Source: Gammaproteobacteria bacterium LSUCC0096 (GTDB lineage: Bacteria; Pseudomonadota; Gammaproteobacteria; Pseudomonadales; Litorivicinaceae). Taken from it: 64,000 bases of DNA. The stretch lies in contig VIEA01000001.1 of the NCBI GenBank assembly GCA_008087055.1, forward strand, positions 1,302,014-1,366,013, given 5' to 3'. The first letter of the stretch is position 1; the number at the start of each line of letters is the position of its first letter. The notes under the pieces are model-generated. The model was given only the letters and a program-made list of their open reading frames with translations. It was not told the origin of the DNA and searched no databases. This document shows positions 2,145-42,151 of the stretch, piece after piece. The position numbers and the translations under genes are program-made.

Positions 2145-3256
2145 TACCCAACCACTCGTTCAAAAAACCAATAACAACCAATGATACCAATCACTGTAGA
2201 TAACGGGACGGCGACTCTCGATTGGTACCAGGGATAACGTAAAATCCAAATGCCAACCGAAAGATACGCCCCTAAGATGATAGCCAACTGCCCAAGCTCT
2301 ACGCCGGCATTAAATGACAGAAGCCCGACCACAAAATCACGCTCAGGCAATCCGAGTTCAGTCAGTACACCTGCAAATCCCAATCCATGGAGCAAGCCAA
2401 AGGCAAACACGACAAACGCTCGCGATCGATTAACTTTGTGATGCCAGATATTTTCGACAGCGATGTAAATAATTGAGGCAGCGATGAGAGGCTCTACGAT
2501 AGATGACGGGAGCTCTAAAACGCCATAGAGGCCGAGAGCGAGAGTCACTGAATGCGCAACCGTAAATGCCGTGACTTGTATCACCAAATCAATCAATCGC
2601 TTGGAAATCAGCGTTAGACCCAAGATAAAAATAATATGATCGAGGCCCCTCGGGATAATGTGGGTGAAACCCAGCTCGATGTATTCAACAACAAGGGCAC
2701 TGAACGATCGTTTGACGGCCTGATCGAGCGACAGCAGATCTGATTTTTGGCCGCTTTTCACAAACTGAACACGGGGCTCTGCATTCTCAAGAAATAAGCG
2801 AATCGCCGTATTTGGCATCGTATCACTCACACGATAGACGAGAGCGTCAGCGCCATCAGGTAATCCACCGACAAAGGTCAATTGAGTATCACGCGGAAGC
2901 TCATCATCGTCGACAGGAAGAACTTCCAGAGTGCTTAAAGTCATTGTGATTGGCGTATCACCCACCATCACGTCGATGACTCGAGAGATCTCACGTTCTT
3001 GATCTCTGATAACCGCTTCTAATCGCGTCGCATCAAGCGCCCGCAACTGATCATAGACCGCTGCATTCGGTGAATCGTTGGTATCCGTCAATGAAGGGTC
3101 GATATTCGCAAGCCAAGCCTCCATATTGGTGACTAGGTTGAGTGTCAGTACGCCCTGAGAATCCACTGAGAGGGATGCGATCGATGGCCGCATTTCATGA
3201 GCGCTTGCGACCAGACTGAAAATCGCTAACAGTAGGCTCATCAACACAGATTTCAT
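2144..3256 (-). CDS. HupE/UreJ-family membrane protein with periplasmic N-terminal domain
   Basis: A 370-residue protein. It has a signal peptide (about 1-19, ending VASA), an approximately 170-residue periplasmic domain, then a HupE/UreJ-type membrane domain from about residue 195 to the end. That domain carries RGLDHIIFILGL (about 203-214) and HGLGFAGVL, both hallmarks of the family. HupE/UreJ proteins are linked to nickel uptake in hydrogenase and urease clusters, but neither enzyme is in this window. The gene is translationally linked to the CDF transporter (TAG/GTG overlap) and is divergent from a DUF4198 gene only 29 nt away. A metal-related role is likely by family and context, and the substrate is unknown. 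Confidence 0.85.
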   Translation of the reverse strand: MKSVLMSLLLAIFSLVASAHEMRPSIASLSVDSQGVLTLNLVTNMEAWLANIDPSLTDTNDSPNAAVYDQLRALDATRLEAVIRDQEREISRVIDVMVGDTPITMTLSTLEVLPVDDDELPRDTQLTFVGGLPDGADALVYRVSDTMPNTAIRLFLENAEPRVQFVKSGQKSDLLSLDQAVKRSFSALVVEYIELGFTHIIPRGLDHIIFILGLTLISKRLIDLVIQVTAFTVAHSVTLALGLYGVLELPSSIVEPLIAASIIYIAVENIWHHKVNRSRAFVVFAFGLLHGLGFAGVLTELGLPERDFVVGLLSFNAGVELGQLAIILGAYLSVGIWILRYPWYQSRVAVPLSTVIGIIGCYWFFERVVG

Positions 3257-3285
3257 CGACTTGTTCTCAAACCCTAGAGGTCACC

Positions 3286-4077
3286 ATGACATTATCACGT
3301 AGCCTAACATTCTCAGTCGGACTTCTGTTGTGGAGTACTCAAATTAGCGCGCATGAATTTTGGATCGAGCCCTCGCAACACTACACACCAACGCAGGAAT
3401 CGGTCGATTTGATTTTAAAAGTCGGAGAAACTTTTCGTGGTAGTGCGCAACCCTATCTTCCAGACGAGACTGCGAAATTCTTCGTCATCAATCAAGATAA
3501 GCGTTCAATTCAAGGTCTTCTAGGCGATTCTCGACCCGCTGCAAAAGTTACAGTGAATGAGGGCCTCAATCGCATCATCCATCAAACGACCCCCTTCTCG
3601 ATCCGCTTCGGAGAGGGAGATGAACGTTGGGACAACTACGTCGCATTGGATGGACTTCAACGACAACTCGATCAGCATCCAGACGAACCACAAACAGTGC
3701 CTGTCACCGAACGCTATGTTCGAGTTGCAAAAAGCTTTATTAAAGCCGGGCCCGCTGAAACTGCAGACGCTCTCTCGGGTGAGATGCCTTTTGAGCTGGT
3801 TCTGGAAGGAAGTTGGAGTCAGCTGACCCCTGGTCAACGTGTATTTACTTTATATGATGGACAACAACCCCTTGAGGGTATCTTAGTAAAGGCATTTCGG
3901 CACAACGATCGATCTGTGGTCTCACAGGCGTATACAGATGCTGATGGTCGGGTGGTACTTGAGTTACCGAGTGCCGATCGCTATCTGATCAGCGGAGTGA
4001 TCATTCGACCTGATACAGACCCGAATTACGACTGGATTAGCCATTGGCCAACAATCACTCTTGAGGTTCTTAATTAA
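3286..4077 (+). CDS. DUF4198 domain-containing periplasmic protein
   Basis: A 263-residue secreted protein. It has a signal peptide (about 1-22, ending QISA) followed directly by HEFWIEP, the conserved N-terminus of mature DUF4198 proteins. Beta-rich segments and a C-terminal Ig/transthyretin-like part follow (YTDADGRVVLELPSADRYL, about 217-235). DUF4198 proteins often accompany nickel or cobalt uptake systems, and here the divergent neighbour is a HupE-like protein. GAGG sits 5 nt before the ATG. The 3' end overlaps the convergent tcdA gene by 8 nt. The function is not established; a metal-binding or transport-accessory role is inference. Confidence 0.8.
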   Translation: MTLSRSLTFSVGLLLWSTQISAHEFWIEPSQHYTPTQESVDLILKVGETFRGSAQPYLPDETAKFFVINQDKRSIQGLLGDSRPAAKVTVNEGLNRIIHQTTPFSIRFGEGDERWDNYVALDGLQRQLDQHPDEPQTVPVTERYVRVAKSFIKAGPAETADALSGEMPFELVLEGSWSQLTPGQRVFTLYDGQQPLEGILVKAFRHNDRSVVSQAYTDADGRVVLELPSADRYLISGVIIRPDTDPNYDWISHWPTITLEVLN

Positions 4078-4843
4078 GCAGCATGTCGATCGCCTTCGCA
4101 GTCGCATGGAACGCGAATACTGCAGTGACATGAGTCACTGCACCTAAAGCGCCTGCACAATCAAGCCGATTAGCGCCCGAGTCCGGCTTCTGTTGACCCA
4201 CCGAGCCATTAACTTGCAAATATCGTGTTTGCTCATCGGAGTAGACCGCACTCACAGCAAAACGTTTACCCGGCGTCCGGGAAAATCCATAACGATTTCT
4301 GAGTGTTTGACGCACCGATGCGAGTAACGCATCACCATCCGTTTTCGCTAAATCACGCACCTGAACTTTGCCTGGATCGATTCGACCACCAGCAGCGCCG
4401 ATCGTGATCACAGGTACTCTGATTCGCTTTGCGTGTGCAATCAGGGCTGCTTTAGCCATTTGGTTGTCACCGCAATCAATAATTAAATCCAAATCCGATT
4501 CGATCAGTGACGCAACAGTTTTATCCGTGACAAAGGCGTGATCGCAACGCACTGTGACATCGGGATTAATCGATCGGCAGCGCTCAGCCATCACTTCGAT
4601 TTTGGATTGCCCGACCGTTGATGACAGCGCATGGATTTGGCGATTGGTATTGGTTACACAGATATCATCAAGGTCAGCGAGTCGAATTTCACCGATTCCC
4701 GAGCGCGCCAAGCTCTCGACAACCCACGATCCGACGCCACCGATGCCAACGATATAAACACGTTTTGTTGAGAGGGTTTGATAGGCATGATCGCCATAAA
4801 GGCGATCAATACCACGGAATGCATCAGGCGTATTAATTGGCAT
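4070..4843 (-). CDS. tcdA: tRNA threonylcarbamoyladenosine dehydratase (TcdA/CsdL)
   Basis: An E1-like ThiF-fold enzyme that dehydrates t6A37 to the cyclic ct6A form in tRNAs reading ANN codons, using ATP. The nucleotide-binding GIGGVGSW (about 33-40) and TNRQIHA (about 66-72) are visible, as are the later GAAGGRIDPGKVQVRDLAKT and DCAGALGAVTHVTA blocks typical of TcdA. I start at the ATG at 4843 because this gives the family's short N-terminus before RLYG (257 aa). An upstream ATG at 4915 would bury 24 extra residues inside lysC. The start overlaps the lysC stop by 11 nt, so the two are probably translationally coupled. Confidence 0.92.
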   Translation of the reverse strand: MPINTPDAFRGIDRLYGDHAYQTLSTKRVYIVGIGGVGSWVVESLARSGIGEIRLADLDDICVTNTNRQIHALSSTVGQSKIEVMAERCRSINPDVTVRCDHAFVTDKTVASLIESDLDLIIDCGDNQMAKAALIAHAKRIRVPVITIGAAGGRIDPGKVQVRDLAKTDGDALLASVRQTLRNRYGFSRTPGKRFAVSAVYSDEQTRYLQVNGSVGQQKPDSGANRLDCAGALGAVTHVTAVFAFHATAKAIDMLLN

Positions 4844-6062
4844 CCTCGAGCGCCAACTCAAAAGCCTGGTGAAGAGAGCGGACTGCGAGTTCGAGATATT
4901 TTTCATCAACGACAACGGATATCTTGATCTCGGAGGTCGAGATCATTTGGATGTTAATCCCCTCAGCGGCAAGCGTCTCAAACATCTGACTCGCAACACC
5001 CGCGTGTGAACGCATCCCAACGCCAACAACCGACACCTTACAAATTTTCGAATCTTTCCGTACTTCGCGTGCGCCCAACTCTTTCGAAACGCCCTCAAGG
5101 ACTTCATAAGCTGCTTCGACGTCATTCCGATGAACAGTGAATGTAAAGTCCGTTGTCTGATCGGCACCGACGTTTTGAACAATCATGTCGACTTCGATAT
5201 TTTTCGCACCGACTGGGGCCAAAATTTTCGCAGCAACACCAGGAACATCGGGCACGCCTAGTAACGTCAATTTTGCTTCGTCACGGTTAAATGCAATACC
5301 TGAAATAACGGGTTGTTCCATGGAATCTAACTCCTCAGTAGTGATCAACGTACCTGGGCCATCTTCAAAGGTTGATAGCACGCGAAGCGGCACATTGTAT
5401 TTGCCGGCAAATTCGACCGACCGAATCTGTAAAACTTTTGAACCAAGAGACGCCATTTCAAGCATCTCCTCAAAGGTGATCTTGGACAGTCGACGTGCAG
5501 ACTCAACAACACGTGGATCCGTCGTATACACCCCATCCACATCCGTATAGATCTGACACTCGTCTGCTTTTAATGCAGCCGCCAAGGCAACTGCTGTCGT
5601 ATCCGACCCGCCTCGACCCAAGGTCGTGATGTTGTTGTTGTCATCCATTCCTTGAAAGCCTGCCACAATGACAACGCGACCCGCTTTAAGGTCGGCACGC
5701 ATATTCTCATCATCAATTGCTTGAATACGGGCCTTGGTATGAGCGCTATCTGTATGGATACGGACTTGACCGCCTGTGTAGCTCTTTGCAGCACAGCCAA
5801 GTTCGGTTAACGCCATCGCAAGCAGTGCGATCGTGACCTGTTCACCTGTTGAGACCAACACATCCATTTCGCGTGGCACAGGTCGCTGACTAATCTCGTT
5901 GGCCATACCAATCAATCGATTGGTTTCCCCACTCATCGCAGAGACGACAACAACGACATCGTGTCCTTGCTCTCTAAATCCTTTAACTTTTTGCGCAACA
6001 CCCTGGATGCGCTCGACGGTCCCTACGCTGGTGCCGCCATATTTTTGAACGATTAACGCCAT
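4833..6062 (-). CDS. lysC: Aspartate kinase
   Basis: Phosphorylates aspartate as the first step towards lysine, threonine, methionine and diaminopimelate. The N-terminal kinase domain opens with the KYGGTSV signature (about 7-13) and contains GRGGSDTTAVALAAAL (about 149-164) and the TDVDGVYTTDPR loop (about 173-184). Two ACT regulatory domains follow (from about 270 and 350), so feedback inhibition by lysine and/or threonine is expected. At 409 residues it matches the monofunctional class common in Pseudomonas relatives. It follows alaS by 8 nt, the alaS-lysC order known in several Gammaproteobacteria. csrA, which often comes next, is replaced here by tcdA. Confidence 0.97.
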   Translation of the reverse strand: MALIVQKYGGTSVGTVERIQGVAQKVKGFREQGHDVVVVVSAMSGETNRLIGMANEISQRPVPREMDVLVSTGEQVTIALLAMALTELGCAAKSYTGGQVRIHTDSAHTKARIQAIDDENMRADLKAGRVVIVAGFQGMDDNNNITTLGRGGSDTTAVALAAALKADECQIYTDVDGVYTTDPRVVESARRLSKITFEEMLEMASLGSKVLQIRSVEFAGKYNVPLRVLSTFEDGPGTLITTEELDSMEQPVISGIAFNRDEAKLTLLGVPDVPGVAAKILAPVGAKNIEVDMIVQNVGADQTTDFTFTVHRNDVEAAYEVLEGVSKELGAREVRKDSKICKVSVVGVGMRSHAGVASQMFETLAAEGINIQMISTSEIKISVVVDEKYLELAVRSLHQAFELALEDAN

Positions 6063-6070
6063 CGAACTTC

Positions 6071-8668
6071 CTAACTCAACTGTTCTTCAAGCCACCCAGA
6101 CACTGACTTCAATGCCTCTGGCAATGATGCAGGCTCAGTACCGCCAGCTTGGGCCATGTCTGCACGCCCACCACCGCGACCTCCGACCTGAGAAGCGACG
6201 AATCCAATCAGATCGCCAGCCTTAACTCGATCGGTCAAGTTGTCTGTTACACCTGCAATCAAATTCACTTTGTCGTCACGAACTGTTGCAAGCACAACAA
6301 CGCCCTGCGACAGACGATTTTTAACGCGATCCAGTGTGTCCCGCAGCGTTTTGGGGTCTTGTCCATCAAGACTTGAGACCAAACATTGCACCCCAGCGAC
6401 TTCCACAACATCGTCTAACAAGTCACCGCCTGCTGCTGTTGCAAGCTTCATTTTCAACGCATCGACTTCACGCTCTGATGCTTTGAGTCGCTCAGCCATT
6501 TGCTCAATTTTAGCGAGCACGGAATCAGACCCTGTTTTCAACAGGGCTGCCGCTTGATCCAAGGTCGTCTCAATTGCATGGATATGATGCAGAGCACCCT
6601 CACCTGTCACCGCTTCAATTCGACGGACACCCGAGGCAACACCGCTCTCGGCGATGATTTTGAATAAGCCAATATCACCAGTTCGAGCAACATGGGTACC
6701 ACCACATAATTCGACTGAAAACTCGCCCATCGACAGGACGCGCACTTCGTCATCATATTTTTCACCAAACAAAGCCATCGCGCCTGCAGCCTTTGCTTCG
6801 TCGATTGGCATGACTCGTGTGACCACATCTTCATTGCGACGAATCTCTGCGTTAACCATTGCCTCAATGGCAGCGATCTCCTCAGCCGAGACTGGTTGCG
6901 AATGCGAGAAATCGAATCGTGTGCGCTCATGAGTCACTAACGAGCCTTTCTGGGTCACATGATCGCCGAGGACAGTTCGAAGTGCAGCGTGCAGCAAATG
7001 CGTTGCCGAATGATTCAATGCGGTCGATTGGCGTCTTGGGCCTTCAACGCGCGCATTGACGGTATCGCCAACATGCAATTCACCCATACCCAGTTTGCCC
7101 TCATGACCAAAATGAGAGCCATACTTTTTAGTCACCGATACTTGGAATGAACCACCTGCTGATGTCAGGGAACCGGAATCCCCTTGTTGGCCACCGCTCT
7201 CTGCATAAAAAGGCGTTTGATTCAGTACGACAACCCCAGTCTCGCCAGCAGCAAGTGATTCGACCTGCGCACCATCTTTTGCTAAGGCAACGACTACGGC
7301 GCTGGCGTCGAGATGCGTGTAACCAAGAAACTCGGTCGATCCATCCAAATCAAATCGAACCTGGCCTTCGGCCGCAAAACTCGAACCTTGGCGCGACTTT
7401 TCACGCTGCTCAGCCATCGCTTGATCAAACCCATCGATATCGAGCTCAAGATCACGCTCGCGGGCAATGTCGTTGGTCAAATCAACTGGAAAGCCGTGTG
7501 TATCGTAGAGTCGGAAAATCAATTCACCAGGAAGTGTGTTTCCTTGAAGAGATGCAACTGCATCTTCCAAAACTTTCATCCCTGCATCTAAGGTCTTTGC
7601 AAATTGAGCTTCTTCCTGTTTCAAGGCAGCTACAATCCGATCTTCATTTTCGCGAAGTTCGGGATACGCTTCGCCCATTTCGGCTACTAAGGTATGCACA
7701 ATTTTGTGGAAAAATGGTTGGTCACAGCCCAACTTGTGTCCGTGGCGAATCGCTCGACGGATGATTCGACGCAACACGTACCCACGCCCTTCGTTTGATG
7801 GCAATACGCCATCACATATCAAAAACGAACAACTCCGAATGTGATCGGCAATCACGCGAAGTGATTTAGCCTCGAGGTCATTGGTACGCGTCACATCCGC
7901 AGCGGCTTTCAATAGCGCCTGGAAAAGATCAATTTCATAATTCGAGTGGACTCCCTGCATAACAGCAGCAATCCGCTCAAGACCCATCCCAGTATCAACA
8001 GATGGTTTTGGTAGCGGAGTCCGCGTGCCATCCGCAGACTGCTCGAACTGCATAAAGACGAGGTTCCAGATTTCGATATACCGATCAAGATCATCGTCTT
8101 CTGAGCCGGGAGGTCCGCCCGGAACGTCAGGTCCATGATCATAGAAAATCTCACTACAAGGACCACAAGGGCCTGTATCGCCCATCGACCAGAAATTGTC
8201 TTTATCACCCAACCGCGAGAGCCGGTTTGGATCGACACCAATTTTTTGAATCCAGATGTCTTCAGCTTCTTGATCTGAATGATGCACAGTCACCCAAAGA
8301 CGTTCTTTAGGAAGCCCTAAGCGCTCAGTTAAAAAGGTCCATGCGAAGCGAATTGCATCTTCTTTGAAATAATCACCAAAGCTGAAGTTTCCGAGCATTT
8401 CGAAAAACGTATGATGACGCGCCGTATAACCAACATTCTCAAGATCATTGTGTTTGCCACCCGCACGCACGCAACGTTGCGAAGTTGTTGCTCGATGATA
8501 GGGACGACTTTCCTCACCTGTGAACACATCTTTAAACTGCACCATCCCTGCGTTAGTAAACAACAGTGTCGGGTCATTTCCCGGAATCAGAGGGCTCGAT
8601 GACACGATGGTGTGGCCATTTTCCTGAAAATATTCAAGGAACTGCGAACGGATTTCAGCGCTTTTCAT
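6071..8668 (-). CDS. alaS: Alanyl-tRNA synthetase
   Basis: Charges tRNA-Ala and edits mischarged serine or glycine. It is 865 residues, a normal full length. The class II catalytic core is at the N-terminus (NPTLL-like [12 protein letters not shown], about 27-38; [19 protein letters not shown], about 59-77). The editing domain carries the zinc motif HSATHLLH (about 556-563) and CGGTH (about 657-661). The C-Ala domain ends with [15 protein letters not shown]. It is flanked by recX upstream and lysC downstream on the same strand and is probably cotranscribed with both. Confidence 0.98.
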
Positions 8669-33954: not shown

Positions 33955-34640
33955 GACTATTTGCGCTACTCGCTGTGTTTATCGCGTTACCTGCCTTTTC
34001 ACAGGGCTATGAAGCCAAATACGACATGATTTGGAGTGTTGGCATCAAGCTCGAGGCCGAAGCCATCGAAACGTTGAAGCAAAACGGTGATCGTTTTGAA
34101 ATGGTTCTTGATGCAAATGCGAGTATTGGCTCTGCAAATGAGACCACCAATCTACTGTTTAACAATGAAAACGGCTGGAAGCCCCTTGATTACAATTACA
34201 CTCAGAGCATCCTCGGGCGCACGACTGGCCGTAATTTCCGATTCAACTGGAACAAAAAGTCGTTAGCCTCGCTTCACGAGCCGGAGCGCGCAGAGATCAC
34301 TATTCCCGATGATACAGTTGACCCCTTAGGATTCCGGCTACAATTGGCGCACCTATTACGTAACGGCAAGCCTTTACCCGAAACAATCACTATGCTTGAT
34401 GGGAATGACATCAAAGCGCGTTCAGTGGTCTCTGGTGAGGTTGAAACTCTGGACATACCCTATGGCCAGATTAAAGCCCAAAAGTTCACTCTGACAGATG
34501 ATAATCCCGATCCGAAGCGCAAATTTGAATTTTGGCTTGCACCTTCACTTGATTATCAACTTGTGAAACTCGAAAAACGTGACAACAAACGGCTTTTTGC
34601 ATTGACGCTCAAAGCATTTAAGAAAGCAGGGACGCCCTAA
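33948..34640 (+). CDS. DUF3108 domain-containing secreted protein
   Basis: A 230-residue protein with a signal peptide (about 1-19, ending FSQ) followed by YEAKYDMIWSVGIKLEAEA, the start of the DUF3108 beta-barrel-like domain. The C-terminal FEFWLAPSLDYQLVKLEKRD (about 196-215) is also typical. The function is unknown. The purM-purN-DUF3108 order is widespread in Gammaproteobacteria. GGAG precedes the ATG by 7 nt, inside purN. Confidence 0.85.
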   Translation: MLRLFALLAVFIALPAFSQGYEAKYDMIWSVGIKLEAEAIETLKQNGDRFEMVLDANASIGSANETTNLLFNNENGWKPLDYNYTQSILGRTTGRNFRFNWNKKSLASLHEPERAEITIPDDTVDPLGFRLQLAHLLRNGKPLPETITMLDGNDIKARSVVSGEVETLDIPYGQIKAQKFTLTDDNPDPKRKFEFWLAPSLDYQLVKLEKRDNKRLFALTLKAFKKAGTP

Positions 34641-34655
34641 CCACAGAGGGCATAT

Positions 34656-35822
34656 ATGCAAACAGGGCTTCACCTGTCGATTCATGCGTTTAAGCCAGAA
34701 GAATGGGACGCGTTAAATCCATCTCGTTACCCTGGTCTATTGCACGGCTTTCTATCAGCTCTCGAAGACTCGAAAAGCGTTGGCGAAGGCACGGGGTGGC
34801 GCCCTCTCTATGCTTCGATCAGCGACTCCAATCAACTGATTGGCGCAATCGTCTGCTATTTAAAATCGGATTCATATGGCGAATATGTATTTGATTGGGC
34901 TTGGGCAGATGCGTATCACCGCCATGGACTTAACTACTACCCAAAATGTGTCACCTCTGTTCCATTCACCCCAGCAACTGGTCCTCGGGTACTCATCAGA
35001 GAAGGTTATGATAAAGCGCGTATCACTCAACAGCTCATTGAAACGTTACGCGATGAGCTTGCCGATCGCGTCTCAAGTTGGCACATCCTGTTTCCAGACG
35101 AAGAGAGTACTCAATACATAAAACCCACAGGCCCTTGGCTCGAGCGCTTTGGTGTTCAGTTTCATTGGTTCAATCAAGGGTTTCAAAGCTTTGATGATCA
35201 TCTTGCGACCTTTAACTCAAAACGACGAAAAGAAGCGCGACGAGAGCGCAGACGTGTGGCTGAGCAAGGAATTACATTCGAACGGTTGAGCGGACATGAG
35301 ATTGACGAGGCAGCACTGGAAACATTATTTCAGTGTTATCAAATGACCTACCGAGTGCGGGGGAGTCTTGGGTATTTGACCCGGGAGTTTTTTGAATATG
35401 CAGTTGATCGTATTCCAGATTCAATTCGAGTCGCCTTTGCGCTTCATCGAGGTCAGCGTATTGCCATGTCATTGTGCTTACGCGATGACACAACACTCTA
35501 CGGCCGTTACTGGGGAGCACTGTATGACGTGGACTGCCTTCATTTTGAAACCTGCTTCCATCAGTGGATAGAAGATGCAATTGCCGAAGGCATACAGCGT
35601 TTTGATCCCGGTGCACAAGGCGAACATAAGATTGCTCGGGGGTTTCGACCTATCAAAACCCAAAGCCTTCACTGGATCCATCATGAAGAATTCGACGATG
35701 CCATTCGACACTTCTTGACTCGAGAGCGGCAGCATATCGACCACTACTTCAAAGCGTGCGATGACTCAACGCCATTTAAGAGCCTAGAGAACGAATTAGT
35801 GCTTAAAAAAAACCCCTCTTGA
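34656..35822 (+). CDS. COG3146-type GNAT/FemAB-like acyltransferase
   Basis: A 388-residue cytosolic protein of the FemAB-like (peptidoglycan biosynthesis/recognition, PF04339) group. Seen are the aromatic YVFDWAWADAYHRHGLNYYPK segment, split here as YVFDWAWADAYHRHG (about 73-87) and LNYYPKCVTSVPFTPATGPR (about 88-107). Also present are a basic KRRKEARRERRR stretch (about 189-200) and RFDPGAQGEHKIARGFRP (about 309-326) near the C-terminus. The acceptor substrate is unknown. The stop codon lies at the apex of the terminator hairpin, so the last residues (KKNPS) are encoded by the hairpin's left arm. Confidence 0.85.
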   Translation: MQTGLHLSIHAFKPEEWDALNPSRYPGLLHGFLSALEDSKSVGEGTGWRPLYASISDSNQLIGAIVCYLKSDSYGEYVFDWAWADAYHRHGLNYYPKCVTSVPFTPATGPRVLIREGYDKARITQQLIETLRDELADRVSSWHILFPDEESTQYIKPTGPWLERFGVQFHWFNQGFQSFDDHLATFNSKRRKEARRERRRVAEQGITFERLSGHEIDEAALETLFQCYQMTYRVRGSLGYLTREFFEYAVDRIPDSIRVAFALHRGQRIAMSLCLRDDTTLYGRYWGALYDVDCLHFETCFHQWIEDAIAEGIQRFDPGAQGEHKIARGFRPIKTQSLHWIHHEEFDDAIRHFLTRERQHIDHYFKACDDSTPFKSLENELVLKKNPS

Positions 35823-35834
35823 AGAGGGGTTTTT
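35808..35834. terminator. Bidirectional intrinsic terminator
   Basis: A near-perfect inverted repeat, AAAAACCCCTCTT / AAGAGGGGTTTTT, is centred on 35821, with an A-tract on the left and a T-tract on the right. It can therefore end transcription of the acyltransferase gene (plus) and of the DUF1538-PII unit (minus). The plus-strand stop codon TGA sits at the apex. Confidence 0.92.
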
Positions 35835-35850
35835 GTCAAATCGATGTCGC

Positions 35851-36600
35851 TTATTTCGACATCAAATCCGCTGAGCGTTTTTGGTTCGCAACCACTTTCT
35901 CGCGATCCGCCTGGATCCGCTCACGGCGTGCCGCAATGTCATCACCAGCGTCCAGAATGACTTTCGTACGCGCCTCGACGGCCCCAACCATCGCATGCGC
36001 TTGCTGCTCTGCAATGTGCGCTTTCTCGATAAGGCTTACCAGTCGTTCCGTATTTGATTCGACAATCTTTCCATTGGTCGCAGGGCTCGCTGCATGGAAT
36101 AACTTATCAAGTTCACCATCGATCCACTCGGCATTTTGAGAAACCATTTCGGAGGCTTGATCGGCAACGACCTCGTTCGCGCTGGTGACCAATTCGTTTA
36201 GCGTGATAAACAGCACGTTGATCTCCGCCATTTGTGCAGCGATCTCACGGAGTTTCTCGTTCAGAACAAAGCGATTCTCAAGAAGATCGATACGAAGGCT
36301 ATTCGTCATCGCATTTTTAAAGTTCTGCTCTGGTTCTGTCTTTGCATCCAAAGCATCAACCATCAGCATCCGGCAACGGTAAAGATCTTCGACATTATCA
36401 ATCGCAATCGCACGGTTACCGTTGAATGCAGATGTAAAGTTTCGCATCAAAAGCGCGCGATTTTCTTCAATATCTGCAACGAGCAGCATGAGTTCAGCAT
36501 ATGCTGTTGATACTCCACACTCGAGCTCAAAAATGCGACGCTTGTTCTTTTTGATATTTGCTGCGTTTTGGGTTGAAACTTGTGTCTTTGGTTCAGTCAT
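35851..36600 (-). CDS. Orphan all-helical (coiled-coil) protein of the DUF1538-PII unit
   Basis: I do not recognise this 249-residue protein. It is predicted from composition to be almost entirely alpha-helical. It has no signal peptide or membrane segment and carries long heptad-like stretches, notably about 104-150 (LENRFVLNEKLREIAAQMAE in this part) and the charged C-terminal helix AARRERIQADREKVVANQKR (about 223-242). Thr/Ser/Asn-rich residues at the N-terminus precede a basic KKNKRR patch (17-22). It is the last gene of the unit, 14 nt after a PII-like gene, and ends at the bidirectional terminator. It may be a scaffold or effector for the PII-like pair; this is inference. Confidence 0.8.
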   Translation of the reverse strand: MTEPKTQVSTQNAANIKKNKRRIFELECGVSTAYAELMLLVADIEENRALLMRNFTSAFNGNRAIAIDNVEDLYRCRMLMVDALDAKTEPEQNFKNAMTNSLRIDLLENRFVLNEKLREIAAQMAEINVLFITLNELVTSANEVVADQASEMVSQNAEWIDGELDKLFHAASPATNGKIVESNTERLVSLIEKAHIAEQQAHAMVGAVEARTKVILDAGDDIAARRERIQADREKVVANQKRSADLMSK

Positions 36601-36614
36601 ATCATCACCTGCGA

Positions 36615-37016
36615 TTAATTTGGTTGGTGCTCGATTGCGTCGGCATCTTGTGCGTCAACGTCATCTGGGAGCGTGTGAATGGTTGAGCGACTCAGCTTAT
36701 TTAAGCGAATCATTCCCATGTTCGGCTTATCCAAATCGCAAAAGTGATAAATAAAATCGAAAATGTTTTCTGCTTGGTCGGCAGCGACAATCACGAAAAA
36801 TTCTTCAACATCAAAAGAATCCGCAACACCAGCGACTGTTTTCTTTCCAATTGGAGAGCCCGCGACGTTGTAGAAATACACTTCGTTGATGCCTTTTGCT
36901 TGAAGTTCTGGGATCAACGTATCTGTCCCACCTTCATACAAAATGCCCGATATCAACCACGAGTAGTCGATAAATTCGACCCGTGGATCTCGTTTTAAAA
37001 CAGGAACGTGTGCCAT
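36615..37016 (-). CDS. PII-like protein B (divergent)
   Basis: A 133-residue protein with the ferredoxin-like beta-alpha-beta repeat of PII relatives. Strand 1 (about 20-26) is followed by helix 1 (TDTLIPELQAKG, 31-42) and strand 2 (VYFYNVAG, 46-53). A loop with IGKKTVAG (56-63) replaces the T-loop. Then come EEFFVIVAADQAENIFDFIY (71-90) and MGMIRLNKL (100-108), matching the PII beta3-alpha2-beta4 region. An acidic tail (about 118-130) is extra. The uridylylated Tyr of GlnB is absent. I start at the ATG at 37016 because the longer frame begins with a poor TTG inside the preceding gene. Binding of an adenine nucleotide is expected by family, not shown. Confidence 0.75.
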   Translation of the reverse strand: MAHVPVLKRDPRVEFIDYSWLISGILYEGGTDTLIPELQAKGINEVYFYNVAGSPIGKKTVAGVADSFDVEEFFVIVAADQAENIFDFIYHFCDLDKPNMGMIRLNKLSRSTIHTLPDDVDAQDADAIEHQPN

Positions 37017-37020
37017 GTCA

Positions 37021-37377
37021 CTAATCCGTATATTTCGCAAGGATTGAAGGCGGAACGTAGGTTGCAGCTTGCATCAGAGGCGTTGCATACATAAAGCCCA
37101 TACCTGGCGTATCCATTTTACCGGCGAGGAAAATCCGTTCGAAAACACGGTCAACTTCATCGCTTGAGACCATTACGCTCACCACATCACGCTCAGCATC
37201 GACAGCGACACCGACTGCTCCGAGGCGCTCTCGGATACCAACGCCCATCGCCGAGTGTAATGTTGCTCCCTGAATACCGACTTCGAGCAGTGCGTCAGTG
37301 ATTACTTCACCGAAACCGTGCTGGACTACCGCTGTAATTAAAGTTGCGTCAGTCAGCGTAGTAAAAGTACGTTTCAT
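37021..37377 (-). CDS. PII-like protein A
   Basis: A 118-residue protein with a clear PII-type layout: strand 1 LITAVVQ (13-19), helix 1 EVITDALLEVG (24-34), strand 2 GATLHSAMGVG (37-47), a shortened T-loop region with RERLGAVG (49-56), strand 3 DVVSVMVSSD (64-73), helix 2 EVDRVFERIFLAG (74-86) and strand 4 GMGFMYATPL (92-101). The canonical GDGKIFV signature of GlnB/GlnK is replaced by TPGMGFMY. AAGGAG lies 9 nt before the ATG at 37377. It follows the DUF1538 gene by 4 nt. It probably senses a small molecule and controls the transporter, by analogy with SbtB or GlnK; this is inference. Confidence 0.82.
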   Translation of the reverse strand: MKRTFTTLTDATLITAVVQHGFGEVITDALLEVGIQGATLHSAMGVGIRERLGAVGVAVDAERDVVSVMVSSDEVDRVFERIFLAGKMDTPGMGFMYATPLMQAATYVPPSILAKYTD

Positions 37378-37381
37378 GGTG

Positions 37382-39178
37382 TCAGACTCCTTGTGGAACT
37401 TCAGTTCGAGCAAGTTCGCGGGCAGTCCGACGCTCTTCTCGTTTCACTTTAAATTGAACATAAATACCGAGTGTCAAAACGGCAACGATTGGGCAAATTG
37501 ATGCGGCAGCCAAGATTCCAAATCCCTCGGTTGAACCGAGCGCGTTACCGAAACCAAGACCCATCGCCAAAACAAGAGGCACCGTCACAGGGCCTGTTGT
37601 CACACCCGCAGAATCCCATCCGACGTTAACGAATTCTTCCGTCGAAAGCAGCGTCAGAATCAAACCAATGGTATATCCGGGAATCAGGATATACATGATG
37701 TGGAAATCATAAATCAGCTTCAAAACGCCAAGCATGATGCCTGTCGCAACACCAAAGGCGACTGCACCCATCAACATCGACTTTTTGAACGCGCCGTTGG
37801 TTAGGTTTTGAACCGTCATTCCGAGTGCATTCAAAGCTGGCTCAGCGAGCGTCGCCCCGAGGCCCAAGACCCAAGCAAACAAAGCGGCGATACCAACACC
37901 CACAGTTACGCTGTAGAGAGGACTTGCATCAACCGCATCGATAGCCGTAAACGCTGCAGCAATCAAACCGCCAGACTGATCACCAAGCTTTGCAAGACCA
38001 TATGTCAAACCAACGTTGAAAATACACATCCCGGCAACAGCCAAGAAAACACCGTAGTAGGTCATTCCTGCATTTTTCATCTTCTCGCGAAGGACGAGCA
38101 TCAAAACGATCGCAAGGAAAATAACCAATGGAACAATCGCACGGACGCCTAAGATTACCTCGTTCCAAGGAGTCACTTCGAACCACTGAGGCTGAGCCGC
38201 AGCCAATGCTGCAGCAGCCTTAATTTCCGCTGCCTTTGCGATAATCTCTTCCGGCGGCACGGTGTAGGCTGTGTAAAAGCTCAGCAACAAAACACCAAGA
38301 ATCGGGAATACAGATGCGAGTGTCACAATCCCGAAACCAGAAAGCGAAGAATCGGCACCCTTACCGGCTGCTGATGCAACACCAATACCCAAAGCCAACA
38401 CGAGAGGAACAGTCACTGGCCCAGTCGTCACAGCTCCGCAGTCCCAAGCGAGGCCCACGATTTTTGTCAGTTCTGGATCCATGAATGCAATTACGCTGAG
38501 AATTAGAGTTGGCGTTAGACTGATGAAAATGAGTGGCTTCAAACTCCAGCCGCGCAAGAAACGAACCGTCCCAAGAACAGCCGCCAAACCAACGCCTAAG
38601 CCGACCAGAAGTACTGTCGCGCCGGAACGGTCGTTTAAGAGCGTGAACAAATAGGGAGCTTTTTCAGGGTCGACAATCGAACCCGCAACCTGGAGCGCAC
38701 CAATGGCTGGCTCAGCAAAGGTCACACCGATACCCAGCAAGAACGCGATGAATAAGACACCTGTTAGTGGCAACTTCCGCGGTAGCGTATTCCCGATGAC
38801 TTCACCAAAAGGCATCAACCCAAGCTTCAGTCCTTCCATGAACATCATCAATCCAACCATAACCGCCAAGAGGCCACCGGCGATGATCGATGCATCCATT
38901 ACTGGAGTTTGCAAAACGAGATATTGGAAAAGCCCAAGATAGATTGCTAAAGGTACAACGGCTCGCGCTTGATCCATAAAGCGCGTTGACAAATAAGGCT
39001 GGAGAATTTTAACAACTTCACCACCACCCAATTTCATTTTCGGAACAGGTTGCGGATACTCATTGCCGTGACGATCGAAGAGTGGTTCAGGCATGAGTTC
39101 CTGATATGGCACGCGTTGGCTATCGACAGACATTGCCTGAATAAAATCGCCAAAGCGCATTGAATTTCTGCGCGACAT
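37382..39178 (-). CDS. Duplicated DUF1538 integral membrane protein (putative transporter)
   Basis: A 598-residue inner-membrane protein made of two homologous halves, each a DUF1538 domain with about six membrane helices. Matching motifs are GVTFAEPA (151-158) with GATLAEPA (441-448), TTGPVTVPLVLA (251-262) with the same motif at 527-538, and GFGIVTLASVFPILGVL (281-297) with GFGILAAASICPIVAVL (552-568). The halves are joined by an Ala/Glu-rich soluble linker (about 308-340). The inverted-repeat-like design and conserved TTGPVTVP are typical of a secondary transporter, but no substrate is known for DUF1538. The first about 60 residues are soluble. Two PII-like genes follow immediately. No good ribosome site precedes the ATG. 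Confidence 0.88.
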   Translation of the reverse strand: MSRRNSMRFGDFIQAMSVDSQRVPYQELMPEPLFDRHGNEYPQPVPKMKLGGGEVVKILQPYLSTRFMDQARAVVPLAIYLGLFQYLVLQTPVMDASIIAGGLLAVMVGLMMFMEGLKLGLMPFGEVIGNTLPRKLPLTGVLFIAFLLGIGVTFAEPAIGALQVAGSIVDPEKAPYLFTLLNDRSGATVLLVGLGVGLAAVLGTVRFLRGWSLKPLIFISLTPTLILSVIAFMDPELTKIVGLAWDCGAVTTGPVTVPLVLALGIGVASAAGKGADSSLSGFGIVTLASVFPILGVLLLSFYTAYTVPPEEIIAKAAEIKAAAALAAAQPQWFEVTPWNEVILGVRAIVPLVIFLAIVLMLVLREKMKNAGMTYYGVFLAVAGMCIFNVGLTYGLAKLGDQSGGLIAAAFTAIDAVDASPLYSVTVGVGIAALFAWVLGLGATLAEPALNALGMTVQNLTNGAFKKSMLMGAVAFGVATGIMLGVLKLIYDFHIMYILIPGYTIGLILTLLSTEEFVNVGWDSAGVTTGPVTVPLVLAMGLGFGNALGSTEGFGILAAASICPIVAVLTLGIYVQFKVKREERRTARELARTEVPQGV

Positions 39179-39233
39179 AATTGATATACCAATAAAAACG
39201 TTTGGTTTGTTATACGTTCAAAATTATGACAGA

Positions 39234-40364
39234 TCAATTACAACTATTGTCTACACCGCAAAAACGCCCCTTGAGAAGACACTCATTCCATTCTTCCTCA
39301 AGGGATGAATCAGCAACTAACCCACTACCCAAACCTAACTGCACCCGACTCCCACTTTGCTCGACTGTCCGGATCGCAACCGACAATGTCATATCACCGG
39401 AGGGTTCGAGGAATCCAACGCTGCCAGTGTATAGCTCTCTCTGATCAGACTCTAACTTCTGAATCAATTCAAACGCTTTTGCTTTCGGCGCCCCAACGAC
39501 GGATCCACAGGGAAACAACGCCTCAATTAATTGGCTCGAATCAACTTTTGACTGGAGCATGGACTCGATCACAGAGGACACTTGATGTACAGACTTCAAT
39601 GAGCGCGGCTCGAATAAACGAGAGACCTGGACAGAGTGAGGTTTTGAAACGCGGCTCAAGTCATTTCGAATGAGATCCACAATCATCAAGTTTTCTGCCT
39701 GCATTTTTGTATCCGATAGCAATTGCTCAAGGATGAACTGATCTTTGCCTTCATCAGAATCTCGAGCAGCAGTTCCTTTCATCGGTTCAGAGCGCAAATG
39801 ATCACCCCGTTTCTCGACAAATAATTCCGGTGACCTCGATAAAACCTGGTGCTCTTTAAAATCGATAAACGCGCCATAATTCGCTGGCTGTGTCTCAAGT
39901 AGGGTGCGATACAATTCCCAAGGCGGGATGTCAGATTGACCATGCAACCGGAAGGTATGGTTTACCTGATAGCAAACTCCTGCCTGAATAGCGTCCTGAA
40001 TTTGCTTAAATGCGTTCCTGTAGTGCGCAAAATCTGGCATTTCCCAATGCGGAAACTGCGTGGCTGGTGCTTGATCAACGGCAATTGGCTGAGGCGCCTC
40101 GCTGTATATGTAGGCTTTTAAGTACGTCTTAGACGGCTGTGTTTCAGCGACATGCCTGGGAAGATCCATCAAATGGAAGGCCGCTTCGTAATTCAAAGTA
40201 AAAACGACCCAAGCGCCTTCACGCGCTTGATCTGCCAAATAACGAAGCCCGCTCTTTAGCTGATCTGAGTGATCAACCTGAAATTCGATTCCTTTCGATA
40301 ACCAACCAAATTCAGTATCAAAACGACTCGAAAAACCGCGGTCCAAACAAACTATTGGATGCAT
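39234..40364 (-). CDS. pabB: Aminodeoxychorismate synthase component I
   Basis: Converts chorismate with ammonia to aminodeoxychorismate, on the way to p-aminobenzoate and folate. It is 376 residues, shorter than E. coli PabB (about 450) because the N-terminal domain is compact. The chorismate-binding core shows SEPMKGTAARDSDEG (about 191-205) with the nucleophile Lys of the PabB-type P(M/I)KGT motif, GSVVGAPKAKAFELIQKLE (about 298-316), YTGSVGF (about 324-330) and GLGSGLVADSSLEEEW (about 351-366). TrpE is an alternative family member, but the PMKGT Lys favours PabB. It is divergent from proS. Confidence 0.88.
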   Translation of the reverse strand: MHPIVCLDRGFSSRFDTEFGWLSKGIEFQVDHSDQLKSGLRYLADQAREGAWVVFTLNYEAAFHLMDLPRHVAETQPSKTYLKAYIYSEAPQPIAVDQAPATQFPHWEMPDFAHYRNAFKQIQDAIQAGVCYQVNHTFRLHGQSDIPPWELYRTLLETQPANYGAFIDFKEHQVLSRSPELFVEKRGDHLRSEPMKGTAARDSDEGKDQFILEQLLSDTKMQAENLMIVDLIRNDLSRVSKPHSVQVSRLFEPRSLKSVHQVSSVIESMLQSKVDSSQLIEALFPCGSVVGAPKAKAFELIQKLESDQRELYTGSVGFLEPSGDMTLSVAIRTVEQSGSRVQLGLGSGLVADSSLEEEWNECLLKGRFCGVDNSCN

Positions 40365-40389
40365 TCCACTCCTAAAGGCCGAAGCCCGT

Positions 40390-40395
40390 TATACT
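40390..40395 (+). promoter_or_regulatory. Candidate -10 hexamer of proS
   Basis: TATACT lies 34 nt before the proS ATG in the 65-nt gap shared with divergent pabB. A matching -35 is not obvious. Confidence 0.35.
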
Positions 40396-40429
40396 TAGCG
40401 TTTTCCACGTTACTACATATGGATGCGAT

Positions 40430-42151
40430 ATGCGGACCTCCCAACTGTTACTCCCAACATTAAAAGAAGATCCGGTTGATACCGTTGTCATCAGTCACAA
40501 ACTGATGCTCCGTGCGGGCATGATTCGACAACTCGCGTCCGGTCTCTACACTTGGTTACCGCTAGGCCTTCGAGTTCTTAAGAAGGTTGAACGTATTGTA
40601 AGAGAAGAAATGGATCGAGCGGGAGCGCAAGAAGTTTTAATGTCAGGCGTCCAACCTGCTGAGCTATGGCAGGAGTCAGGTCGCTGGGGTCAATTTGGAC
40701 CTGAACTACTGCGCCTCAAAGATCGCCATGAGCGCGATTTCTGTTTGGGTCCAACCCATGAAGAAGTCGTCACAGATATCGTGCGCCGGGAGGTCAATTC
40801 GTATAAACAGTTACCTCTCAATTTGTATCAAGTTCAAACAAAATTCCGTGATGAAGTACGTCCACGTTTTGGGGTGATGCGTTCACGGGAATTCATCATG
40901 AAAGATGCCTATTCGTTTGATATTAACGAAGACGGCATGCGCGAGAGCTATCAAGCAATGTACGACGCCTACTGCCGTATTTTTGATCGGTTTGGTCTCG
41001 ACTATCGTGCAGTTCTTGCAGATTCAGGAGCGATCGGCGGCAGTGGATCACAAGAATTTCATGTCCTTGCGGATTCAGGTGAAGATGACATCGTCTTTTC
41101 AAATGGGTCTGAATACGCAGCAAACATTGAAAAGGCGGAGTGCATTGCCTCGGGAAATCGCCTAGAACCTCAAGAAGAGATGCGCAAGATCGAAACGCCA
41201 ACGCAAAAAACTATCGAAGCCTTGGTAACGGACTTTAATCTTGCAGTCGAGAAAACGGTCAAAACACTCATCGTCCGCGCATCTGATCTCTGTGAATCTG
41301 ATTTTGTCGCTCTCATCGTTCGGGGCGACCACACGTTGAATGAAGTCAAGGCTGAAAACCATGCCATGGTCGCAAGTCCACTCACGTTCGCAACAGAAAG
41401 TGAAATTAAAACGATCATGGGCGCCGGCCCTGGCTCCCTCGGTCCCGTGAATTGTCCCATTCCGGTCATCGCTGACAGACAAGCTGCCGTCTGTTCCGAT
41501 TTTGGAGCGGGTGCTAACGAAGATGGATGGCATTATTTCGGTATCAATTGGGGGCGTGATTGTGCCGAGCCTGAAACAGCTGATTTGCGGAATGCCGTCG
41601 AAGGTGATCCTGCACCAGATGGCTCAGGAACCTACTTAATCCGCAGAGGTATTGAGGTGGGGCATGTGTTCCAACTGGGCCAAAAATACTCCGAAGCAAT
41701 GAATGCGACGGTTCTTGATGAGAACGGTAAGCAGGCGACATTGTTTATGGGATGTTACGGAATTGGCGTGACGCGTATTGTCGCTGCGGCTATTGAGCAA
41801 CGTCATGACGAGCGAGGAATCTGCTGGCCACCTGCATTGGCACCTTTTGATGTCTGCATCGTTCCAATTGGTGGTAACAAAAATCCATCTGTCGATGAAG
41901 AAGCCCTGCGCATCCAGAGCGAACTCCAAGGTCGTGGTCTCGAGGTTCTTCTGGATGATCGGAACATGGGACCAGGTCCCCGGTTTGCGGATATGGATCT
42001 GATCGGCATCCCTGTGCGCATCGTTGTTAGTGCAAAGACTCTTGAAGACTCAGAAGTTGAACTCAAACAACGAACTGAGGAGGAGGATGCTCGCGTGCCT
42101 CTTGGTGATGTTGTAGATATTGTGATGACACTCGAATGGCTCAAATCCTAG
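40430..42151 (+). CDS. proS: Prolyl-tRNA synthetase
   Basis: Charges tRNA-Pro. It is 573 residues, the bacterial type with an editing insertion domain. Class II motifs are seen: [20 protein letters not shown] (about 27-46, motif 1 region), [20 protein letters not shown] (motif 2, about 139-158) and [13 protein letters not shown] (motif 3, about 443-455). The insertion domain (about 220-400) lies between motifs 2 and 3. The C-terminal anticodon-binding domain has [19 protein letters not shown] (about 507-525). Its last 16 nt overlap the start of the wrbA-like gene. Confidence 0.98.

Follow-up and report, generated by a model that had tools for sequence, protein, structure and literature searches.

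Why should a membrane protein of the DUF1538 family be encoded together with two small proteins that resemble PII signalling proteins? The question is raised by a four-gene unit in a stretch of 64,000 nucleotides (nt) from Gammaproteobacteria bacterium LSUCC0096 (contig VIEA01000001.1; the whole stretch is referred to here as the window). The genes, named U, P1, P2 and C from the transporter gene onward, lie on the same strand with gaps of 4 nt (CACC) between U and P1, 4 nt (TGAC) between P1 and P2 and 14 nt between P2 and C, and the coordinates of their open reading frames (ORFs; Table 1) bear out the layout given in the original prediction, an earlier reading of the window from its letters. 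Across the DUF1538 loci surveyed, a PII domain is the constant of the antiporter, and the second sensor is interchangeable between CBS and PII. By analogy with PII-controlled transporters, it is moderately probable that the unit encodes a cation/proton antiporter of the fused UmpAB type, set by a cytoplasmic complex of the unlike P1 and P2 with gating through their T-loops.

The transporter U and the PII-type proteins P1 and P2

The Pfam family DUF1538 (PF07556), still listed there as a domain of unknown function, matches U twice and covers both halves of the protein (E 6.8e-99; 329.8 bits against a cut-off of 22.6). The halves are 32% identical to each other (E 3e-26) and carry TTGPVTVP at U 251 and U 527, in agreement with the expectation of two homologous halves with a repeated motif. 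Each half bears an AEP motif and a WDxxxVTTGPVTVP motif, and the invariant acidic residues in them, E156/E446 (in AEPA) and D246/D522 (in WDxxxVTTGPVTVP), are candidate ion or proton residues. UmpAB of Halomonas zhaodongensis, characterised in 2017, is a heterodimeric Na+(Li+,K+)/H+ antiporter (PMC5484666). Because DUF1538 is the family of UmpAB and antiport has been demonstrated for the Halomonas protein, U is classified from its sequence as a UmpA-UmpB fusion of the Na+(Li+,K+)/H+ antiporter family, and we infer its substrate (Na+/K+ versus H+) from that family. The original prediction had proposed a transporter of unknown substrate, and this view, like that of a transporter of unknown kind, was rejected since DUF1538 is a characterised antiporter family (PMC5484666; NF041627/NF041628). 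The matches of U to the NCBIfam models for UmpA and UmpB (NF041627 and NF041628) are strong (E 1e-61 and 5e-46) and fall below the equivalog cut-offs (208 versus 490 bits and 157 versus 500 bits), which makes U a homologue and not an equivalog.

Halomonas UmpAB and U share the Pfam family, the two homologous halves and the AEP and D-S/C-x-x-V-T-T motifs (the latter as seen in two-gene relatives), but UmpAB consists of two genes, whereas U is one fused chain of 598 amino acids (aa) with a linker. The predicted structure of U (predicted local distance difference test, pLDDT, 73.1; predicted template modelling score, pTM, 0.73) has helices broken at the AEP and VTTGP motifs; it gave no fold match in the PDB at E<=0.001, and a sequence search found no solved relative either. 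UmpAB has been put forward as a marine adaptation of cable bacteria (PMC10030654, PMC12093952), and a 2026 study placed DUF1538 among the top 20 genomic predictors of growth pH (PMC13255231).

P1 belongs to the PII family. In the window it scores 27.3 to 27.7 bits against the Pfam P-II model (PF00543; gathering score 25), 22 of 22 of its homologues that were scanned match this model at E<=0.1, and a search of the PDB with its profile retrieves PII chains (E 9.7e-7). Relative to GlnK, P1 keeps T29, G35, G37, G87, G89 and a basic residue at 58, and therefore appears to retain the frame of the PII nucleotide site (PMC8395244). Its T-loop is about six residues shorter and has no Tyr51. Residues of the Q39, K90, R101 and R103 type in GlnK bind Mg-ATP and 2-oxoglutarate (PMC8395244), and because these ligand residues are replaced, P1 should not be a classical ATP/2-oxoglutarate sensor. 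In the P1 family GxGxR is invariant and RER is mostly conserved, with R49 invariant and a basic residue at 51 within GxGxRER. Together, GxGxR and RER may take over phosphate binding, by analogy with SbtB, which binds adenyl nucleotides through an R43xxR46 motif (PMC10117731). A canonical GlnB or GlnK was rejected as the identity of P1, given that the key residues Q39, Y51, K90, R101 and R103 are gone and the genome encodes its own GlnK elsewhere; the small proteins are thus distinct from GlnB/GlnK, as had been supposed.

P2 has no Pfam match of its own. Comparison of its family profile with that of P1 gave a probability of 98.9% (E 1.5e-17), and hhalign with broader sets raised this to 99.6% (E 1.2e-23), the two being homologous over their whole length. 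An AlphaFold2 model of P2 has the beta-alpha-beta-beta-alpha-beta order of PII, and with this model the first 29 PDB matches of Foldseek are all GlnK/PII, CPII or SbtB (E from 8.9e-4, probability 1.00). The profile comparison and the model thus identify P2 as a PII-type protein and led to rejection of a non-PII identity. With P1 placed by Pfam and the PDB profile and P2 by these two lines, the earlier assignment of both small proteins to the PII type held, including on the structure-prediction check of the fold, where the P2 model proved nearest to solved PII structures. No P2 homologue was present on the viral contigs searched.

PII domains beside DUF1538 antiporters

Loci were gathered by homology to U and by sampling genomes of the class and phylum irrespective of the genes next to DUF1538, which occurs in about 30% of the Pseudomonadota genomes in the sample. 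PII profiles were built from such loci, and representatives of every architecture also pass the Pfam P-II model. A PII-type gene lies beside the antiporter in 113 of 114 classified loci, or in 113 of the 113 with enough flanking sequence, since in the sole exception (L078) the contig ends five bases after the match. PII domains also accompany the antiporter in all six plasmid records (five clostridial, one alphaproteobacterial). The link spans three phyla and five arrangements, with genes overlapping or spaced by 4 nt.

The five arrangements differ in how the antiporter and its sensors are divided among genes. Separate umpA and umpB genes are followed by a PII gene and a CBS-pair gene in 23 loci (architecture i), with two more in which no CBS was detected, and a short fusion of 495-538 aa is accompanied by PII and CBS in 13 (ii). 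The long fusion to which U belongs stands with P1 and P2 in 30 loci and with C as well in another 39, or 40 if the truncated copy L090 is counted (iii). An extra-long fusion of 632-731 aa is paired with one chain of PII-like domains, 384-420 aa in length, in five gammaproteobacterial genera (iv). In Clostridia, a fusion of about 500 aa precedes a chain of some 220 aa that contains two PII domains (v; five records, two of them unannotated), and NCBI, where it annotates these double chains, names them P-II family nitrogen regulator. The CBS-pair protein stands in the place of P2 in the commoner architectures. In the triple chains of architecture iv, domain 1 is about equally near to P2 and P1, domain 2 is clearly P1 (E 7e-24) and domain 3 is a weak P1 match (91%). 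The neighbours had been expected to be constant across DUF1538 loci; this holds for PII, while P2 is exchanged for CBS in the commoner types and C is confined to one branch.

The components are known singly. The literature searched, from which most subscription journals are missing, did not yield the constant link between PII and this antiporter, the second PII or chains of two or three PII domains, nor anything relevant on PII with DUF1538 or on an antiporter with CBS. No signalling family of prokaryotes is more widespread than the PII superfamily, and few of its transporter targets are known. PII beside the antiporter suggests a so far unreported on/off switching of ion exchange by metabolic state and, if true, PII control, known for the uptake of nitrogen and carbon, would also cover the homeostasis of sodium, potassium and pH. 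Chains that naturally carry two or three PII domains offer a route to asking whether and why PII trimers use unlike subunits.

A proposed PII-gated antiporter and competing explanations

In the mechanism proposed, P1 and P2 would assemble into a mixed trimer or paired trimers, which would dock on the cytoplasmic face of UmpAB; the T-loops would plug or free the transporter depending on the bound adenine nucleotide, and Na+(K+)/H+ exchange would thereby track the energy or second-messenger status of the cell. C, confined to one branch, may be a coiled-coil accessory serving the complex as scaffold or tether. Docking, gating, ligand, mixed trimer and the role of C are what we infer here. Sensing appears to be a fixed part of the unit because the partner of PII is either a CBS pair or another PII, and a CBS pair is typically an adenine-nucleotide sensor. 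Since fused double and triple PII chains occupy the same genomic position, and fusion is a classical indication that proteins encoded apart come into contact, unlike PII domains likely touch each other, and the mixed-trimer idea of the original prediction is in this way indirectly supported. Mixed PII trimers have a precedent in GlnB-GlnK heterotrimers (references cited in PMC5448240); those of E. coli are built from two free-standing paralogues, whereas here the unlike domains are co-encoded and elsewhere covalently fused.

Precedents for PII gating of a transporter are SbtB-SbtA and GlnK-AmtB (PMC10117731). As in SbtB-SbtA, a PII-type gene shares an operon with a membrane transporter, and R43xxR46 has its possible counterpart in R49 and the basic residue 51 of P1; the transporter family is unrelated, however, SbtB is single, there is no second PII or CBS, and P1 lacks the Cys pair of the R-loop. 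The PII gene likewise adjoins the transporter in GlnK-AmtB, where GlnK plugs AmtB, but the transporter, T-loop length and ligand residues are different. CPII and other PII-like regulators share the PII fold and altered ligand residues with the present proteins, but have other genomic partners, and no obligate pair of unlike PII proteins or double or triple chain with a transporter is known among them. The clone used for the Halomonas antiport assay ended with umpB and hence was without PII or CBS (PMC5484666); the PII neighbours lie outside it, and PII is not mentioned in the main text of that paper. Antiport measured without these proteins fits a regulatory role and not that of an essential subunit. 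A wider proposal would have all UmpAB gated by an obligate asymmetric PII assembly (P1 with P2, double or triple chains, or PII with CBS), forming a two-input switch on an asymmetric two-half transporter and an undescribed mode of PII action; this extension is tentative and stands somewhat below even chances.

Several points weigh against a PII-gated UmpAB-type antiporter. The long fused form is only about 30-36% identical to the two-gene UmpA/UmpB of sampled relatives, each of Q39, Y51, K90, R101 and R103 of GlnK is replaced or deleted in at least 24 of 26 P1 homologues (the Q39 position being Arg in 23 of 26), the confidence of the P2 model is moderate (pLDDT 70.8), and the sample of loci is not random. 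The distance from two-gene UmpAB, the lack of a solved relative of U by sequence or fold and the gating of bicarbonate and ammonium carriers by PII proteins would also suit a long fused form that carries a substrate other than Na+/K+ under gating of the SbtA/SbtB kind. We regard this as rather improbable, as the UmpA and UmpB models match U strongly, though below the equivalog cut-offs, and the acidic motifs FAEPA and WDxxxVTT occur in both halves of U and in two-gene UmpAB alike. Slightly better placed, yet still unlikely, is the possibility that PII gates the transporter while P1 and P2 each make a homotrimer of their own and have distinct tasks: P1 might act on U, for instance, and P2 buffer P1 or sense another ligand. 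P1 and P2 are indeed separate genes in most long-fused loci, and a single PII next to a CBS protein suffices in the commoner architectures; against this stand the fused double and triple chains in the same genomic position and the homology of P1 and P2 over their whole length.

That P1, P2 and C never part from U in the sample could also mean that they are structural or assembly subunits needed for the function of the fused antiporter and not switches. Such a role has a low probability, because Halomonas UmpAB works in E. coli without them (PMC5484666) and other loci have CBS or fused chains in place of the second PII. Chance neighbours, or genes hitch-hiking in a mobile cassette, would be compatible with the horizontal transfer of the unit described below, but a PII gene beside DUF1538 in all assessable loci of three phyla and five arrangements, with overlapping or closely spaced genes, makes this explanation very improbable indeed.

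The helical protein C, transfer of the unit and further loci

By sequence, C matches nothing above noise in Pfam or the PDB, and membership in a known family was rejected on this ground; a membrane protein was also rejected, for there is no membrane segment and the maximum 19-residue hydropathy is 1.33. Within residues 93-160, the six strongly conserved Asn columns all share a single heptad register, a pattern that arose in 0 of 20,000 random placements and resembles a coiled coil whose core contains layers of Asn; this periodicity in conserved columns upholds the prediction of a helical, coiled-coil fourth protein. C is present in 1 of 274 gammaproteobacterial genomes (that of the window) and otherwise only behind U-P1-P2. 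That it might serve as a scaffold or tether is conjectured from its shape and linkage.

The unit is a horizontally transferred cassette. U is 86-92% identical across its gamma- and alphaproteobacterial carriers, including the isolates IMCC14465 and IMCC1909 and SAR116 single-cell genomes, and a tree that sets gammaproteobacterial apart from alphaproteobacterial members is rejected (approximately unbiased test, AU p 3.6e-5). DUF1538 occurs in only 5 of 22 genomes of the genus, and two same-genus genomes (L151, L152) have an empty site at which the convergent flanking genes overlap by 4 nt. Two others (L029 and L030, from G017 and G012) contain a different DUF1538 unit, 57% identical, with P1 and a short P2 and without C; the genus therefore seems to have made at least two acquisitions. 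The base composition of the unit is not foreign (GC 0.490 versus 0.488). At its convergent end lies a hairpin with a T run on both strands, where a bidirectional terminator had been predicted; by count such hairpins are not rare (7 found versus 5.3 expected), and this one sits between two convergent genes. No RNA element was detected at 34500-40500 in an Rfam search.

Table 1. Coordinates of features in the window and in other DUF1538 loci
Feature	Record	Position	Strand	Description
U	window	37382-39178	-	Fused UmpA-UmpB type antiporter (putative), 598 aa, two DUF1538 halves
P1	window	37021-37377	-	PII-family protein, 118 aa, ATG start, shortened T-loop with GxGxRERLG
P2	window	36615-37016	-	Divergent second PII-type protein (predicted), 133 aa, ATG start
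C	window	35851-36600	-	Soluble helical protein (predicted), conserved Asn-layer heptad register, no known family, 249 aa
Hairpin	window	35813-35829	both	Resembles a two-way intrinsic terminator; between C and convergent gene 34656-35822
Empty-site stretch	window	35823-39233	n/a	Missing from same-genus genomes
Triple-PII chain	L028	3399-4661	-	Directly behind extra-long fusion
Triple-PII chain	L144	4659-5813	+	Directly behind extra-long fusion
Triple-PII chain	L145	3486-4661	-	Directly behind extra-long fusion
Triple-PII chain	L146	335-1525	-	Directly behind extra-long fusion
Triple-PII chain	L147	4587-5765	+	Directly behind extra-long fusion
Double-PII chain	L153	4472-5140		Clostridial plasmid record
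Double-PII chain	L154	4314-4988		Clostridial plasmid record
Double-PII chain	L156	3467-4135		Clostridial plasmid record
Double-PII chain	L157	4452-5132		Clostridial plasmid record
Double-PII chain	L158	4269-5270		Clostridial plasmid record
Split extra-long antiporter	L147 (G264)	2702-4590	+	Two ORFs, 489 and 128 aa
Plasmid locus	L155	2956-4294	+	Conjugative Chelativorans plasmid
Compound locus	L104 (G449)	3496-7687	-	Fused and split antiporters in one row

Some loci depart from the five arrangements in detail. Between their second and third domains the triple-PII chains have a conserved linker that ends in DWRDQ or WRDR, and in L147 the extra-long antiporter itself is divided between two ORFs by a frameshift or an assembly error. 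On the Chelativorans plasmid, two DUF1538 ORFs, one short and one full, occur with a PII gene and no CBS. In L104 a fused antiporter stands in one row with PII, CBS, another PII and a split umpA/umpB pair. L142 and L143 (G352, G346) encode very divergent DUF1538 fusions on long tree branches; their P1 is ordinary and their P2 strongly diverged.

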